DNA of 64,000 nucleotides from NCBI RefSeq assembly GCF_000214375.1, contig NC_015578.1, positions 3,348,001 to 3,412,000 on the forward strand, written 5' to 3'. Source of the stretch: Treponema primitia ZAS-2. Lineage in GTDB: Bacteria > Spirochaetota > Spirochaetia > Treponematales > Breznakiellaceae. The notes under the pieces were generated by a model. It searched no databases, was not told the origin of the DNA, and saw only the letters and a program-made list of their open reading frames with translations. The translations under genes and the position numbers were made by a program. Of the stretch, positions 12,614 to 26,886 are shown piece after piece; position 1 is the first letter of the stretch, and the number at the start of each line of letters is the position of its first letter.

Positions 12614-14572
12614 CTACAAGCTAGCCCTGTACTCTCCAAGGAAATAAAAGTTTTCTGTCCGGGTTCTCAGCTCTTCCACCGCCCCGGCAAAGGTATCCTC
12701 TGTGGAGGGAATGGTAACATCCACGTAGAACTGGTACTCCCAGGGTTGGCCCTGTATGGGCCGGGATTCAAGTTTGGAAAGGTTAAGCCCACGGTCGCTT
12801 ATTATTTTCAGACAGCTGAAGAGGGCCCCGGACTCATCGGGGACGGAAAACACCAGGGACGCCTTATTCGGCTTATCTGAACCAAGGCTGGGGGGTATGG
12901 GCGCCAAGTTGCTGCCATTGCGCCGGGAGATAATCACAAAGCGGGTATAGTTCAGGGGGTTGGTCTCAATACCCGCCTTGAGTACCCGCAGGCCATGGGC
13001 TTTGGCAGCCGCTTCCCCGGCAATGGCGGCTACCTTGGTGGCCCCTTCCCGGGCAATGGAGGCCACCGCAGTTGCGGTATCGTTGCAGGCCTCTAGCTGC
13101 CAGGCGGGGTACTTATCCAGGAAGTCCCGGCACTGGGCAAAGCCCTGGGGGTGACTGCGGACTATGCTGATGTTTTCGATTGACGCCTTTTCATCGGCGA
13201 TCAGGCAATGGACAATCCGCAGCTTCAGTTCCCCCACCATGGCGATATCCGGGTAACGGAGGAAAAGATCGTAGTTTTCATGGACCGATCCGGCCAAGCT
13301 GTTTTCTACAGGTACCACCCCAAAGCCGGCAGCGCCTTCCAGGACCGCATCAAAAACCCCGCGAAAAGAGGCTGCCTGCAGCCGGGGCGCCTCTTCCCCG
13401 AAGGCTCGCATCAGGGCCTGTTCGGCATAGGCGCCGCTTTCCCCGGAAAAGGCTATGGGCAGATTGCTTGGGCTTACCGCTTCGGTGGCCGAAGCCCCAC
13501 TTTTGCCGGAAACCTTAAGCACATTCCCCGCAGACGGCCGGGGAGTACGGAGCAGTTCCTTCCCCACCACCGGGGCCAGGGCTTCAATATCCCGCATGAG
13601 TCGCTCAAACTGTTCGGGGTACAGGGACTGGGGTCCGTCGGAAAGGGCTTCATCCGGCCGAGGGTGTACTTCAACCGTAAGCCCGTCAGCTCCGGCCGCA
13701 ACCGCCGCCAGGGCTGCGGAACTGATCATAGCCCGGATCCCCACGGCGTGGCTGGGATCAACGATGACCGGCAAATGGGAAAGGCCCTTCACCACCGAAA
13801 TGGCGGAAATATCCAGGGTATTCCGGGTATAGGTCTCAAAGGTGCGTATCCCCCGCTCGCAGAGCACCACATCCCGGGTCCCCGCCGCCAGGAGGTACTC
13901 CGCGGAAAGGAGCCATTCCTCAATAGTCGCCGAGGGGCCTCGCTTCAATAAAACCGGCTTACCCAGGGAACCGACCTTCTTTAACAATTCAAAGTTCTGC
14001 ATATTCCGGGCGCCGATCTGGAACATATCCGTAAGATCCTTCATCTGCCCGGCAAATTCCGGGGACACCACCTCGGTAACGATGGGCATACCGTTGGCTT
14101 CACCTGCTGCCTTCATAAATTCCAGGCCCTGCATACCCAGGCCTTGGAACGCGTAGGGACTGGACCGGGGTTTATAAGCCCCACCCCGGAGCATCACCGC
14201 CCCGGACTCCCGGACCCGGGCTGCGGTTTCCATGATCTGATCCCGGCTTTCCACTGCGCAGGGCCCGGCAATCACCGAAATCCGGGACCCCCCAATCTTA
14301 ACCTGGGAAGTGCCTGTCCCCACGGTGACAATAGTATTCCCAGGCTTGCTCTCCCGGGAGGCCAGTTCGTAGGGCTTGGAAGTTGCCGCTACCCGCTCCA
14401 CCCCAGGCAGCAAGCCCAGTTCCCGGAGATCTACCACCCCCTTACCGGTTCCGCCGATAACTTCATCGTCCCCCAGGACCTGATCCCGTACCGCAAAGCC
14501 CCGATCTTTCAGATAGATCCGGACCATTTCTTTATCATGCTGGGAGACGCCTTTGGACAAAACGACAATCAT
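12614..14572 (-). CDS. Fused DAHP synthase / prephenate dehydratase
   Basis: One 652-residue chain joins the first step of the shikimate pathway to the phenylalanine branch. Residues 1-70 form a ferredoxin-like regulatory domain; 75-345 are a class I-beta DAHP synthase with VIAGPCAVESRDQI, RGGAYKPRSSPYAFQGLG, CERGIRTFE, VDPSHAVG and ADGLTVEVHPRPDEALSDG. Residues about 372-560 are prephenate dehydratase with IAFSGESGAYAEQAL, GVVPVENSLAGSV and the catalytic TRF motif in NYTRFVIIS. A C-terminal ACT domain has the ESRP motif that binds phenylalanine. No chorismate mutase domain is seen. The short linker (345-371) suggests a real fusion. Start ATG 14572 has a weak GAGG upstream. Confidence 0.92.
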   Translation of the reverse strand: MIVVLSKGVSQHDKEMVRIYLKDRGFAVRDQVLGDDEVIGGTGKGVVDLRELGLLPGVERVAATSKPYELASRESKPGNTIVTVGTGTSQVKIGGSRISVIAGPCAVESRDQIMETAARVRESGAVMLRGGAYKPRSSPYAFQGLGMQGLEFMKAAGEANGMPIVTEVVSPEFAGQMKDLTDMFQIGARNMQNFELLKKVGSLGKPVLLKRGPSATIEEWLLSAEYLLAAGTRDVVLCERGIRTFETYTRNTLDISAISVVKGLSHLPVIVDPSHAVGIRAMISSAALAAVAAGADGLTVEVHPRPDEALSDGPQSLYPEQFERLMRDIEALAPVVGKELLRTPRPSAGNVLKVSGKSGASATEAVSPSNLPIAFSGESGAYAEQALMRAFGEEAPRLQAASFRGVFDAVLEGAAGFGVVPVENSLAGSVHENYDLFLRYPDIAMVGELKLRIVHCLIADEKASIENISIVRSHPQGFAQCRDFLDKYPAWQLEACNDTATAVASIAREGATKVAAIAGEAAAKAHGLRVLKAGIETNPLNYTRFVIISRRNGSNLAPIPPSLGSDKPNKASLVFSVPDESGALFSCLKIISDRGLNLSKLESRPIQGQPWEYQFYVDVTIPSTEDTFAGAVEELRTRTENFYFLGEYRASL

Positions 14573-18071: not shown

Positions 18072-19730
18072 GTGTTCCTGCTGGCATTCGGTTTAATAGG
18101 CTGTGAAAACCCTGAGGAGAATACCCCCACGCTACCGCTGCTGCTGCTGCCGGACACCACCGCCCCCGTGTTAAGCGCAGGAATAGTGATGAGTTATCAG
18201 CCTACCCCGGCAGGAATCACTGCTATCCTGCTATTTACTTCCGACGGATTAGGAACCTGCTACTATGTAGTACAGGGCGCAAGCGAAGACGAACCTGCTA
18301 AGGAAGTGATAGCAAGTACCGACGCCTATTACACCGACTACGTTATTGCACCAGGGCCAAGGCAATTCAAGATTTATATAACCGGCCTTACCCCAGGCAA
18401 CCAGTACAAAGCTTACATCGTCGTAAAAGATCCGGCAGGCAATATTTCGGATGTATTGACCATTGCCATTACCGGAAATCCCATTACCGAAGCCATCGCA
18501 GGCAAAACCGGATTGGGAAACTCGGTAGACCCCTATGTGGTCACCGTAACCGGGATGGATCTTTCCACCGATCTGGACGATATCTTATCCGGCATCACCG
18601 CCGGCATATCCTGGGGACCCATCATGCTGGACCTTTCGGCCTGCAGCGGCGAAAGCATCCCCAAGCCACATATATCGAATGAGGACCTAGCCCGCTTTGT
18701 CTCCATTACCCTGCCCGCCACGGTAACTACCATTACTTATAAAGACGGTTATTTAGGGGGTGCGTTTGCCTACTTTACCAGCCTCAAAAACATCAGCGCC
18801 CCTGGTGTAACTACGGTGAACCACTCTGCATTCGCCAAGTGCACCAGCCTTGTAACGGTGGACCTCCCCGCAGCGAAAACTTTCGGCAATAATGTATTCT
18901 ATGGCTGTACCAGCCTTAAAACGGTGACCCTCCCCGCAGCGAAAACCTTCAGCGATGACGTATTCTACGGCTGCACTAGCCTTGAAACGGTGAACCTCCC
19001 CACAGCGGAGACCTTCGGCAATAATGTACTCTACGGCTGCACTAGCCTTGAAACGGTGAACCTCCTCACAGCGGAGACCTTCGGCGATGACGTATTCTAC
19101 GGCTGCACTAGCCTTGAAACGGTGAACCTCCCCACAGCGGAGACCTTCGGCAATTATGTATTCATTGGCTGCACTAGCCTTGAAACGGTGAACCTCCCCG
19201 CAGCGGAGACCTTCGGCGGCGGGACATTCAGCGGATGCCACAGCCTTGTAACGGTGAACCGCCCCGCAGCGGAGACCTTCGGCGGCGGGACATTCTACTG
19301 GTGCACCAGCCTTGCAACAGTAAACCTCCCCGCAGCGAAAACCTTCGGCAGCGGGACATTCAGCGGATACGACATCCTTGTAACGGTGAACCTCCCCGCA
19401 GCGAAAACCTTCGGCGACCAGACATTCTACAACTGCGACAGCCTTGCAACGGCGAACCTCCCCGCAGCGAAAACTTTCGGCGACCAGACATTCCGCCACT
19501 GCACCAGCCTTGAAACGGTGACCCTGGGCGCTACCCCAACCCCTTCTTTTGGGCTGGATACTTTCTCTGACGTACTCATAAGTCCACCCAACATCGTCAC
19601 GGTGAAGGTCCCCGGCGGAAGTACCAATACCAGCTATAACGATGCTTGGAAGGATGCCTTTAGGGGCAAGGGCACATTCGACAGCGGGGAAGTTAATGAC
19701 TGCATTATAGTAATCGTAGCCGCGCTGTAG
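18072..19730 (+). CDS. BspA-type leucine-rich repeat surface lipoprotein
   Basis: The product has a lipobox LIGC close to its N-terminus, a beta-rich region (about residues 30-140) with a fibronectin-like feel (LTPGNQYKAYIVVKDPAGN), and then ten 22-residue repeats of the type CTSLETVNLPAAKTFGxxxFyG plus degenerate ones at each end, i.e. LRR_5/BspA repeats. These proteins are surface-exposed and often bind host or bacterial ligands. The true start is unclear: the frame is open from 18027, GTG 18072 is the first usual start codon but leaves only ten residues before the Cys, while CTG 18042 would give a complete lipoprotein signal (MFRSILILG...). No ATG or clear ribosome site exists here. Probably phase-variable through the upstream C tract. 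Confidence 0.8.
   Translation: MFLLAFGLIGCENPEENTPTLPLLLLPDTTAPVLSAGIVMSYQPTPAGITAILLFTSDGLGTCYYVVQGASEDEPAKEVIASTDAYYTDYVIAPGPRQFKIYITGLTPGNQYKAYIVVKDPAGNISDVLTIAITGNPITEAIAGKTGLGNSVDPYVVTVTGMDLSTDLDDILSGITAGISWGPIMLDLSACSGESIPKPHISNEDLARFVSITLPATVTTITYKDGYLGGAFAYFTSLKNISAPGVTTVNHSAFAKCTSLVTVDLPAAKTFGNNVFYGCTSLKTVTLPAAKTFSDDVFYGCTSLETVNLPTAETFGNNVLYGCTSLETVNLLTAETFGDDVFYGCTSLETVNLPTAETFGNYVFIGCTSLETVNLPAAETFGGGTFSGCHSLVTVNRPAAETFGGGTFYWCTSLATVNLPAAKTFGSGTFSGYDILVTVNLPAAKTFGDQTFYNCDSLATANLPAAKTFGDQTFRHCTSLETVTLGATPTPSFGLDTFSDVLISPPNIVTVKVPGGSTNTSYNDAWKDAFRGKGTFDSGEVNDCIIVIVAAL
18840..19499 (+). repeat. Ten tandem 66-bp repeats encoding LRR units
   Basis: Units of exactly 66 bases run from 18840 to 19499 with no indels, each coding one 22-residue LRR starting at the Cys-Thr-Ser-Leu position. 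Adjacent units are very similar at DNA level (several share nearly all bases), so copy number can change by recombination. The high similarity also keeps other frames open, producing spurious antisense ORFs. Confidence 0.93.
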
Positions 19731-23170: not shown

Positions 23171-26083
23171 TTACAGCCCCCGGATATTCACCAGGTTTGA
23201 GTGCTGGGGGTTTCCTTTAGCCAGGGGCGAAGGGGCCAGGGTGGTAATGGCGTTGATATTCCCCCGTATGTCCGCCCCATCTGCGGCAGGGGTAAACCAG
23301 GCGCCCTGGGACATGGCCAGCACACCCTTCATAATTCCATCCCTGACAGCGGCGCGGATGCGGATGGTTCCCCGGCTGTTCCAAACTTCTACCAGTGCAT
23401 TATCCTCTATGTGCAGTTTTTCTGCGTCCTCAGGGCTGATATACACCGCCGGGGATTCTACTCGGTCCATCAGAATATTATTGTCATGGATAGAATGGGT
23501 CCGCCTTTTGGTATGCCAGCCGGTCAACTGGAAGGGGTATTCCGCAGTCAGGTGATCCTCCGGGCCTTCAAAGCCCGGTATATACCGGGGCAGGGCGGGG
23601 ATCGCCGGATCATGGAAATCCTGGAGCCGCTTTGAGAATATCTCTATCTTTCCCGAAGGCGTCGGAAAGGGGTTTCTTTCAAAATCCTCTCTCTGTTCCC
23701 GGAAGGCGATGAAGTTTGTTTTTTGCTTGTAGAAATACCCGCCCTCTTTTGCAAATTCCGCAAAGGGAGGCAGCTCCTCCTCATAGTTTCTGCACTCTTC
23801 GTACAGCGACTCAAGCCACCCCTCAGCCCTTGTATGGCCTTCGGTAAATTCATCGTAAAGGCCCAACCGTTCCGCAATTTCCGTAAGCCAGTCATACTCA
23901 AAGCGGCTTTCAAAAAGCGGCTTTACTGCGGGGTTACAATAGAGCAGGTAATCACCCTCCCGCCAGGGCCTGGCGATATTCGGGCTTTCCAGGAATGATG
24001 TACCGGGCAGAAGTATATCGGCGAATCGGGCGCTGGGGGTTAAAAAAAGGTCGGACACCACAATAAATTCACATTTTTCAGTATCCCGCAGTATTTCTAC
24101 GGTAGCATTGATGTCCGAATGCTGGTTGATAAGGGTGTTTCCCGCCAGATTCAGTATCATTTTTATGGGCGACTCCAGGAAATCCCTGCCCCGGATATGG
24201 TCCTGCCGGGCGCTCATTTCCCGGCCCCGGCTGACGGCGTCCGTCCATAAAAACGATGGGATGGAAACGCCGCAGGGGTTGACCGGCAGGGGGAAGGACG
24301 GGATATGGAAGCCCGGAATATGCCCGGTCCCTACGGCGCCGCCCCCTTCTACGCCCACGTTTCCGGTCAGGCAGCTCAGCATAGCCAGTGCCCGGACGCC
24401 CTGCTCACCATTACTGTGTCGTTGCATCCCGTACCCGGCTATCAGCGCCGCAGGCTTGCTCAGGGCATAACGGCGTGCCAGGCCTGTGATAAGCGCCTGG
24501 GGAATGCCGATGATTCGCTCCGCCCATTCAGGGGTCTTTTCAAGGCCGTCCTGTTTCCCGAATAGGTAGGATTCGTAACTTTCTCCGGCTGCCGTGCCCG
24601 GAGGCAGGTGGGCCTCGTCAAAGCCCAGGCAGTACCGGTCCATAAACTCCCGGTCCTCAAGTTTTTCAGAAAGTATCACATAGGCCATGGCATCCGCCAG
24701 GGCCCCGTCCGTACCGGGCCTGATGGGTATCCACTCACCATCCAGCAGTTTTATTGTTTCATTATGCCGGGGGTCCACCGCGACAACCGGGATACCTTGT
24801 TTCTTAGCCCGCACCAAATCATCGGTCAGATAGGCGCCGAAACCGCTTTCCTTAGGATTGTGACCCCAGAGTATGATCAGTTTTGATGAACCGAGGAAAT
24901 GGCTGCTGCTGCCGGTAAAGTTGGTGCCGTACACATAGGGGGTAGCGATCGCCGTACAGGCGGTACTGTAGAAATTGTAATGACCCAGGTAGCCCCCATC
25001 CAGGGCAAGGAGCCGTTTCGCCAAATTCTCCGGGTTGGCGGTTCCCTCGGCGCCGCTGCCGGGCATCACATAGCGGGAAGCGGGGCCGTATTCATCCCTG
25101 ATACGCTTCCATTCACCGGTAATGGCGTCTATCGCCTCCTCCCAGCTTATGCGGCGAAATTTACCCTCCCCCCGTTCACCAATACGCTTCATGGGGTAGC
25201 GGATACGCCGGTGGGAAAGAAAAGTTTCATGGTAATGGTGGCCCCGGATGCAGTACTTTATAAAGGGCGTCCTTTCCGAATCAAAGCGGAAGCCCAGTAT
25301 GTTCCCCGCCCTGGTACGGGCCAGAAAACGGCACCTGCTGCCGCAGTTATTGTTCCCGCTGCTGGGGATAAGCCGCTCAGGAAAGGGCAGACTCTTAACC
25401 GCTTCCCTGAAAAAAAGCGCCGCGAATTTATCCGAGTAGGAACGCAGTGATGCTATGCGTTCTCCGGAAGGCGCTTCAATTTCCACACCTATACCGGATT
25501 CCTTCTCAATAACACCGATACCGCTGAGAAATTCCGTCATTGCCCGAAACAGCTCTGTTACCTTAAACCGTTCCCCGTCTGCTCTCTCCAGGGAATCCAG
25601 GGTCTCGACAATATTCCTAAGTAAAAAAACTGTATGCCTGGAAAGAAATTCCCCGCAGTATTCCTCTGCTTCCCTGAGACCGGAACCCGCAAGGCAGGCG
25701 CAGAAGGCAAATTCGACGCCTATATGGTCGCAGACCTGATGAAGTTCGGGCCTTAGTTCAAGGCCCCATGCGGCGTAACATTCCTGCACGGCAAGGGTAT
25801 TCTTATCCAACAGTGTCTGACCGGGGGACCGGAAACTCGATTCCCAGAGCGGTATGTCATACCCCCTGGTATTCTCTACAATGTACCCGTACTCTTCCCG
25901 GTAGTTCTCCCAGGCTCCAGGACCCAATCCGGAAATGTCTTCCAGAAACGAAAGAAGCTGCCGGTGATGCGCCCTATCCCTATAAGATTCCAGCCTTCTC
26001 TTATTGAAGGAATAAGCCTGCTGATCCTGGGAGAACAGCAACAGTTCCGCTGCCATTCTGAACACTTCCGCACGGTAGCGCAT
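23171..26083 (-). CDS. Molybdopterin oxidoreductase fused to N-terminal TorD-like chaperone domain
   Basis: Residues 1-195 match the TorD/DmsD/NarJ chaperone family (YGYIVENTRGYDIPLWESSFRS, then CDHIGVEFAFCACL). Residues 240-970 are a DMSO reductase-type catalytic subunit: CGSRC (C247, C251) and C278 for a 4Fe-4S cluster, HRRIRYPMKRIGERGEGKFRRISWEEAI, a Ser in YSTAC as likely Mo ligand, and a C-terminal molydopterin-binding domain (LTGWHTKRRTHS..., ALVEVWNSRG). The usual first Cys of the cluster motif (position 243) is Gly. No Tat signal exists, so it should be cytoplasmic. No iron-sulphur or membrane subunit gene lies next to it. It follows the DapF-like gene by 11 bases. Confidence 0.88.
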   Translation of the reverse strand: MRYRAEVFRMAAELLLFSQDQQAYSFNKRRLESYRDRAHHRQLLSFLEDISGLGPGAWENYREEYGYIVENTRGYDIPLWESSFRSPGQTLLDKNTLAVQECYAAWGLELRPELHQVCDHIGVEFAFCACLAGSGLREAEEYCGEFLSRHTVFLLRNIVETLDSLERADGERFKVTELFRAMTEFLSGIGVIEKESGIGVEIEAPSGERIASLRSYSDKFAALFFREAVKSLPFPERLIPSSGNNNCGSRCRFLARTRAGNILGFRFDSERTPFIKYCIRGHHYHETFLSHRRIRYPMKRIGERGEGKFRRISWEEAIDAITGEWKRIRDEYGPASRYVMPGSGAEGTANPENLAKRLLALDGGYLGHYNFYSTACTAIATPYVYGTNFTGSSSHFLGSSKLIILWGHNPKESGFGAYLTDDLVRAKKQGIPVVAVDPRHNETIKLLDGEWIPIRPGTDGALADAMAYVILSEKLEDREFMDRYCLGFDEAHLPPGTAAGESYESYLFGKQDGLEKTPEWAERIIGIPQALITGLARRYALSKPAALIAGYGMQRHSNGEQGVRALAMLSCLTGNVGVEGGGAVGTGHIPGFHIPSFPLPVNPCGVSIPSFLWTDAVSRGREMSARQDHIRGRDFLESPIKMILNLAGNTLINQHSDINATVEILRDTEKCEFIVVSDLFLTPSARFADILLPGTSFLESPNIARPWREGDYLLYCNPAVKPLFESRFEYDWLTEIAERLGLYDEFTEGHTRAEGWLESLYEECRNYEEELPPFAEFAKEGGYFYKQKTNFIAFREQREDFERNPFPTPSGKIEIFSKRLQDFHDPAIPALPRYIPGFEGPEDHLTAEYPFQLTGWHTKRRTHSIHDNNILMDRVESPAVYISPEDAEKLHIEDNALVEVWNSRGTIRIRAAVRDGIMKGVLAMSQGAWFTPAADGADIRGNINAITTLAPSPLAKGNPQHSNLVNIRGL

Positions 26084-26094
26084 TGAACCATTCC

Positions 26095-26886
26095 TTAATC
26101 GGGGTAGTACAGTTTTACTGTTCCACCTATAGAGATACCGATCACTGCCCCGCCCTTTCTGATAACCCTGGCCTCAATGATACCCCCAGGCTGGACGATG
26201 GGGATCGCCTCATCGTCTTCCGGTTTTTCCCGGCTCAGCCAGCAGCCCATAGCCGCCGTACCGGACCCGCAGCTTGACTCAAACATCAGGGTGCGGGAGC
26301 CGTAGACATACACCGCAGGCCGCATAAGAGCCGCCGCAGAATCCCAAAACAGCACCCCCAGGGCGCTTTCCCTCTGCCTCTGTCCGGCGAATTTTCGTTC
26401 CACCAGTTCCTTGATGGTATAAAAAACATCCTCGTCCGGTGCAATATCCGGGGCGATAACATGGGTAATCCCTTCAAAAAGATAGATCGGCAAATCTGCC
26501 CCGTTAAACTCCAGGGTTTCCTCTGCCACAGGAGCGGGAATGGTCACCTCCGCCAACCCCGCCCCCGGGTCAACCTGGACAGCCAGGGGGCCGGCGGCCC
26601 CGGAAATCTCAATAAGTACCCGCTGTTTTCCCGTAAGCCCGGTCCTCCGGGCCACATAGAGGCCGAAGCTGCGGGCCGCATTGCCGCAAAATTCGCCCCC
26701 CATCATTTCCAGCCGCCAGGGACGATCGCTCCCCCCGGGCGGAGGAATGACAAAGCCTACCTGTTCGGCGGCCAGAGAAGGGTCGGCCATCAGGGCCTTC
26801 ACCGCTGCCGCCCGGTCCTGCACCTGGTCCAGCACAAAGACGGTGATGTTTTTTGCGGGATCCGCAATTACGATGTCATACTTCAT
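26095..26886 (-). CDS. Diaminopimelate epimerase-like racemase
   Basis: This 263-residue protein has the two-domain DapF fold pattern with both catalytic Cys in context: GGEFCGNAARS (about residue 67) and ESSCGSGTAAMG (about residue 213). The substrate-binding NxDGS segment of true DapF is absent, and the first motif differs from CGNGxRC, so another amino acid may be the substrate; histidine racemases of the CntK type are relatives. It is divergent from an amino acid ABC transporter and upstream of the molybdoenzyme. Start ATG 26886 is the only good choice. Confidence 0.75.
   Translation of the reverse strand: MKYDIVIADPAKNITVFVLDQVQDRAAAVKALMADPSLAAEQVGFVIPPPGGSDRPWRLEMMGGEFCGNAARSFGLYVARRTGLTGKQRVLIEISGAAGPLAVQVDPGAGLAEVTIPAPVAEETLEFNGADLPIYLFEGITHVIAPDIAPDEDVFYTIKELVERKFAGQRQRESALGVLFWDSAAALMRPAVYVYGSRTLMFESSCGSGTAAMGCWLSREKPEDDEAIPIVQPGGIIEARVIRKGGAVIGISIGGTVKLYYPD

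Follow-up and report, generated by a model that had tools for sequence, protein, structure and literature searches.

A gene in a 64,000-nucleotide stretch of Treponema primitia ZAS-2 DNA (referred to here as the window) encodes a TorD-type chaperone and a DmsA-type molybdoenzyme as a single polypeptide, and the same fusion spans several bacterial phyla, mostly species without Tat export. Chaperones of the TorD/DmsD group are normally separate proteins linked to export, and two jobs are ascribed to the TorD family: loading of the molybdenum cofactor and holding the client back from export until it is loaded. With the chaperone covalently tied to its client and the bacterium devoid of Tat, these two jobs are split, allowing cofactor loading to be studied alone and at a fixed 1:1 ratio. 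The product is fairly probably a soluble cytoplasmic S-/N-oxide reductase of the DmsA type that carries its own maturation chaperone in cis. No description of a TorD-DmsA fusion was found in openly searchable papers, a scope outside which most subscription journals fall, and the arrangement is not mentioned in PMC10609526, PMC4464133 and PMC10100899, which are reviews and phylogenies.

Domain structure of the fusion protein

The gene runs from an ATG start in a single frame without an internal stop (Table 1). Its N-terminal chaperone domain, first described by a sequence-only reading of the window, was recovered both by Pfam (PF02613, Nitrate_red_del/TorD, at residues 39-148, scoring 48.2 bits where the cut-off is 22.2) and by structure prediction. 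The AlphaFold model of the fusion protein (pLDDT 88.9, pTM 0.90) consists of helices spanning residues 2-188, a loose stretch at about 195-220, and a DMSO-reductase fold.

Table 1. Features of the fusion gene and its upstream neighbour (positions in the window)
Feature	Position	Strand	Basis or remark
Whole gene, TorD-DmsA fusion protein, 970 aa	23171..26083	-	ORF, Pfam, NCBIfam, structure model
TorD/NarJ-type chaperone domain, residues 1-190	25514..26083	-	PF02613, profile and fold matches
Linker, residues 191-224, low model confidence at about 195-220	25412..25513	-	Structure model
DmsA/YnfE-type molybdopterin catalytic part, residues 225-970 and stop codon	23171..25411	-	Pfam, NCBIfam, phmmer, fold
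Gly243, where E. coli DmsA has its first FS0 cysteine	25355..25357	-	Alignment
FS0 loop, residues 243-278, GNNNCGSRC...C; C247, C251 and C278 kept	25250..25357	-	Alignment
Ser373, predicted molybdenum ligand	24965..24967	-	phmmer alignment with the YST of Rhodobacter DMSO reductase
Upstream gene, weak diaminopimelate epimerase likeness	26095..26886	-	11 bp from the fusion gene

The fused TorD domain is divergent, with about 20-26% identity to other TorDs. A profile built on fused and separate TorDs matched the TorA chaperone (1n1c, 8.6e-21) and DmsD (3u41, 7.9e-18). When the chaperone part was modelled alone and compared by VIA-align 2, the closest structures were NarJ (8jzc, Z 15.4), YcdY (14.6) and DmsD (3efp, 12.8), while the best unrelated fold reached Z 6.7; Foldseek by itself gave a weak result for this domain (best E 2.8e-3). 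S82 and D119 are invariant in fused and separate TorDs, and the P-x-W-E/A-S and D-H-I-G patches are present in both. The domain thus resembles the TorD/DmsD/NarJ family in its all-helical fold, its sequence patches and its profile match, but differs in being covalently joined to its client rather than free-standing, and in residing in a host that has neither a Tat signal peptide nor a translocase to guard.

In the remainder of the protein, Pfam recognizes Molybdopterin (293-739) and Molydop_binding (851-962) domains and, marginally, an Fe4S4 domain, while the NCBIfam model TIGR02166 (dmsA_ynfE) scores 803 bits against a curated cut-off of 777.7. Among solved structures, those most similar to the catalytic fold of the model were Rhodobacter DMSO reductase, MtsZ and TorA. 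The fold is common to Haemophilus influenzae MtsZ and the Rhodobacter enzyme (TM 0.84-0.86 by target length), but these are periplasmic proteins without FS0 or a chaperone domain. With DmsA of DmsABC and with YnfE/YnfF the protein shares the catalytic fold, the TIGR02166 score, the position of the serine ligand and three of the four FS0 cysteines; it differs from them in its predicted cytoplasmic location, the missing Tat signal, the fused TorD and a glycine at the first FS0 cysteine and, from the DmsABC system, in having no adjoining DmsB or DmsC gene. Escherichia coli BisC, the biotin/methionine sulfoxide reductase, also belongs to the DMSO reductase family and reduces S-oxides as a soluble cytoplasmic enzyme, but lacks the entire FS0 cysteine motif and any fused chaperone. 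The predicted molybdenum ligand, Ser373, is invariant in 32 sequences.

The upstream gene encodes a divergent epimerase-like protein whose score lies below the Pfam cut-off, and it is probably co-transcribed with the fusion gene. Two further reading frames of the window drew attention by eye: a 652-aa ORF (12614-14572, minus strand) resembling a DAHP synthase joined to a prephenate dehydratase, and a frame (18072-19730, plus strand) with many near-identical leucine-rich repeats of the BspA type.

Distribution, gene arrangements and protein export

A scan of genome contigs yielded 58 related loci, whose gene maps were drawn by script. The domain order of the window protein recurs in a paralogue within its own genome (949 aa, 47% identical, with the same glycine, its gene overlapping that of an M24 peptidase) and in many unrelated genomes: sixteen more fused loci were found beyond the own genome, in Bacillota, Synergistota and Spirochaetota, and rumen genomes contain second fused copies (L095, L096, L097, L098). 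The window's own family gave a strong match in 10 of 200 genomes; this survey returned six loci outside the own genome that contain a TorD domain (profile E 1e-35 to 1e-57), and unfused loci that all belong to another genus.

Among the mapped loci four arrangements (A-D) can be distinguished. In the first (A; Bacillaceae, Sporomusa, Tissierella, Alkaliphilus, Desulfovibrio), a DmsA with a Tat signal is accompanied by a nearby separate TorD gene, mostly followed by DmsB and often by DmsC. In the second (B; L029, L030, L032, L036, L052, L059), a fused TorD-DmsA without Tat signal is preceded by a gene for an FAD oxidoreductase and mostly also by one for a DmsB-like ferredoxin. The third (C), to which the window gene belongs, comprises fusions without ferredoxin or FAD oxidoreductase neighbours, and the fourth (D) unfused enzymes with neither a Tat signal nor a TorD nearby. 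Two further loci were grouped with arrangement B: one fusion (L014) has the ferredoxin gene alone as neighbour, and a Lachnospiraceae locus (L023:2814-6326) encodes a DmsB-like 2x[4Fe-4S] ferredoxin, a TorD and a DmsA-type reductase as one chain of 1170 aa.

Among relatives that are exported, the gene for DmsA adjoins, and sometimes overlaps, the one for TorD, an arrangement from which a frameshift or a missed stop could produce an apparent fusion by error. This explanation, the one that the sequence-only reading had itself raised against its interpretation, retains practically no probability: independent fused ORFs occur in many unrelated genomes, complete and isolate ones included, and the own genome holds two. 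The artefact is therefore ruled out by the paralogue and the fused orthologues, and the fusion is genuine.

The host genome is complete (4,059,867 bases), and PF02613 occurs in it at two places, both within the fusions; no free-standing TorD was found. Neither was TatC, for which the same search matched in 11 of 14 control genomes, nor DmsC, which among the controls was matched in E. coli only. No DmsB- or DmsC-like gene adjoins the window fusion, as had been noted from the sequence, and there is no RR motif ahead of its catalytic part, in agreement with the earlier statement that the enzyme has no Tat signal. A MobA-like gene, scoring below the curated cut-off, lies near formate-dehydrogenase-like genes.

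The relation between fusion and export was examined in 47 genomes besides the own one, comprising 15 hosts of the exported type (including two Dethiobacter), 16 fusion hosts and 16 hosts of form D. TatC was found in 15/15, 3/16 and 3/16 of these, respectively, and a separate TorD in 14/15, 0/16 and 1/16. For exported-type hosts against the rest, Fisher's test gave p values of 7e-8 (TatC) and 6e-10 (separate TorD), for counts that ignore relatedness and include many incomplete assemblies; two complete sequences, those of the own genome and of the Clostridium asparagiforme chromosome, fit the trend. The proposal that the enzyme is a soluble cytoplasmic reductase is thereby well supported, the own genome being without TatC, DmsC and separate TorD, and fusion hosts being mostly alike. 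In form-D hosts a TorD was present neither in nor beside the enzyme (16/16), and in 15/16 nowhere in the genome; the TorD domain is therefore not indispensable in this clade. This distribution would make cytoplasmic, oxide-reducing relatives of DmsA widespread in gut and rumen anaerobes, and for such relatives the label 'DMSO reductase subunit A' implies a periplasmic respiration that they probably do not perform.

The FS0 site and the electron donor

Alignment with E. coli DmsA, YnfE and YnfF, which have a cysteine where the window protein has G243, bore out the loss of the first position of the four-cysteine FS0 motif (CxxxCxxxC...C); the remaining C247, C251 and C278 are invariant in 32 sequences. 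Within the DmsA sub-clade nearly all members have glycine at this site and some have serine, and the CxxxCxxxC spacing was seen among close relatives in the Dethiobacter sequences only. Exported Bacillus-type proteins (L031, L033, L034, L039, L040, L047, L048) have a cysteine one residue earlier (CxxxxCxxxC), unlike E. coli DmsA, and the second fused copies of rumen Bacillota contain NDCGxKC, with asparagine or serine at the first-cysteine site. Glycine or serine also occupies this site in members that are exported by Tat and have DmsB and DmsC, and in others that have no TorD. The missing cysteine is therefore not a result of the fusion, and a link between the two traits was ruled out; the converse idea, that a weak FS0 site caused the tethering of TorD, is unsupported, the TorD-less unfused relatives sharing the glycine. 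Gly243 marks a variant within the DmsA/YnfE family, to which the protein is assigned by its sequence score. We infer, as did the sequence-only reading, a 3Fe or otherwise altered FS0 cluster: three cysteines may hold either [3Fe-4S] or [4Fe-4S] completed by another ligand. In NarG, the cluster corresponding to FS0 has a histidine (PMC10609526).

Electrons would enter through this three-cysteine FS0 from a soluble ferredoxin. The donor had been called unknown, which holds for the own genome and not for the sister operons, which encode a DmsB-like ferredoxin and an FAD/NAD(P)H oxidoreductase; there, the donor is probably the DmsB-like 2x[4Fe-4S] protein, fed by the oxidoreductase. Searches of the own genome revealed neither a ferredoxin nor a flavoprotein dedicated to the enzyme: an FAD-oxidoreductase query gave a 31% match only, and a ferredoxin query retrieved ferredoxin-like proteins whose genes lie at other sites, those of the two best next to a formate-dehydrogenase-like gene. 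On these grounds a dedicated partner in the own genome was rejected, and a shared ferredoxin may serve as donor. The substrate of the mature enzyme would be a small sulfoxide or N-oxide, with methionine sulfoxide as one candidate; DmsABC accepts methionine sulfoxide and N-oxides among its substrates (PMC12096835). The neighbouring genes (epimerase-like, M24 peptidase, amino-acid permease, methionine gamma-lyase, kinase and others) form no consistent pattern hinting at a substrate.

Role and origin of the tethered chaperone

Covalent attachment of the chaperone where Tat is missing from the host agrees with a role in cofactor loading alone. Reviews report that TorD aids insertion of Mo-bisPGD into apoTorA even without a signal peptide, that signal-less DmsA gives a soluble and active cytoplasmic DmsAB, and that NarJ-type chaperones guide the insertion first of FS0 and then of Moco (PMC10609526, PMC5123574). 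By the mechanism we propose, the tethered domain would keep the newly made catalytic part open for insertion of FS0 and then of Mo-bisMGD, and would remain attached afterwards; the guarding of a Tat signal would have been lost and cofactor loading retained.

Lifelong attachment could also be expected of a domain repurposed for permanent docking or a structural task, for example the binding of a ferredoxin donor or dimerization, with no part in cofactor loading. That unfused relatives manage without any TorD, and that in the Lachnospiraceae protein a ferredoxin is fused directly ahead of the TorD domain, speak for such a change of function; we regard it as rather unlikely, since the fold is intact, the residues common with separate TorDs (S82, D119 and both patches) are kept, and a ferredoxin gene occurs in only some fused operons. 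It might also be supposed that the domain is a relic, fused while the lineage still had Tat and now drifting without a role, as its divergent sequence and its loss in L005 and L015, both closely related to the window gene, could indicate. This is distinctly improbable: the fusion has been kept across several phyla, in both own-genome paralogues and in the second rumen copies, and the models give its fold with good confidence.

Regarding the origin of the tethered domain, the 16 fused TorDs group together to the exclusion of 11 separate ones (support 95/92; the clade appears in 96% of 200 bootstrap trees), which favours a single fusion event. On the catalytic tree, whose deep forks are weak, the fused rows need five changes. 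When this tree is rooted by an outgroup, exported forms, E. coli DmsA among them, branch from within signal-less lineages, and among the deepest of these several are fused. The DmsA lineage might accordingly be imagined as having first been cytoplasmic and self-chaperoned with a three-cysteine FS0, exported DmsABC and free TorD having arisen later by gene splitting and gain of a Tat signal; with the root, too, weakly supported and the outgroup possessing the first cysteine, we hold this order of events to be unlikely. The unfused, TorD-less spirochaete loci L005 and L015 fall next to the window gene within a group of four that has support of 99. Their position suggests that the TorD domain was lost later, and they offer a naturally occurring example of such loss with which the window gene can be compared.
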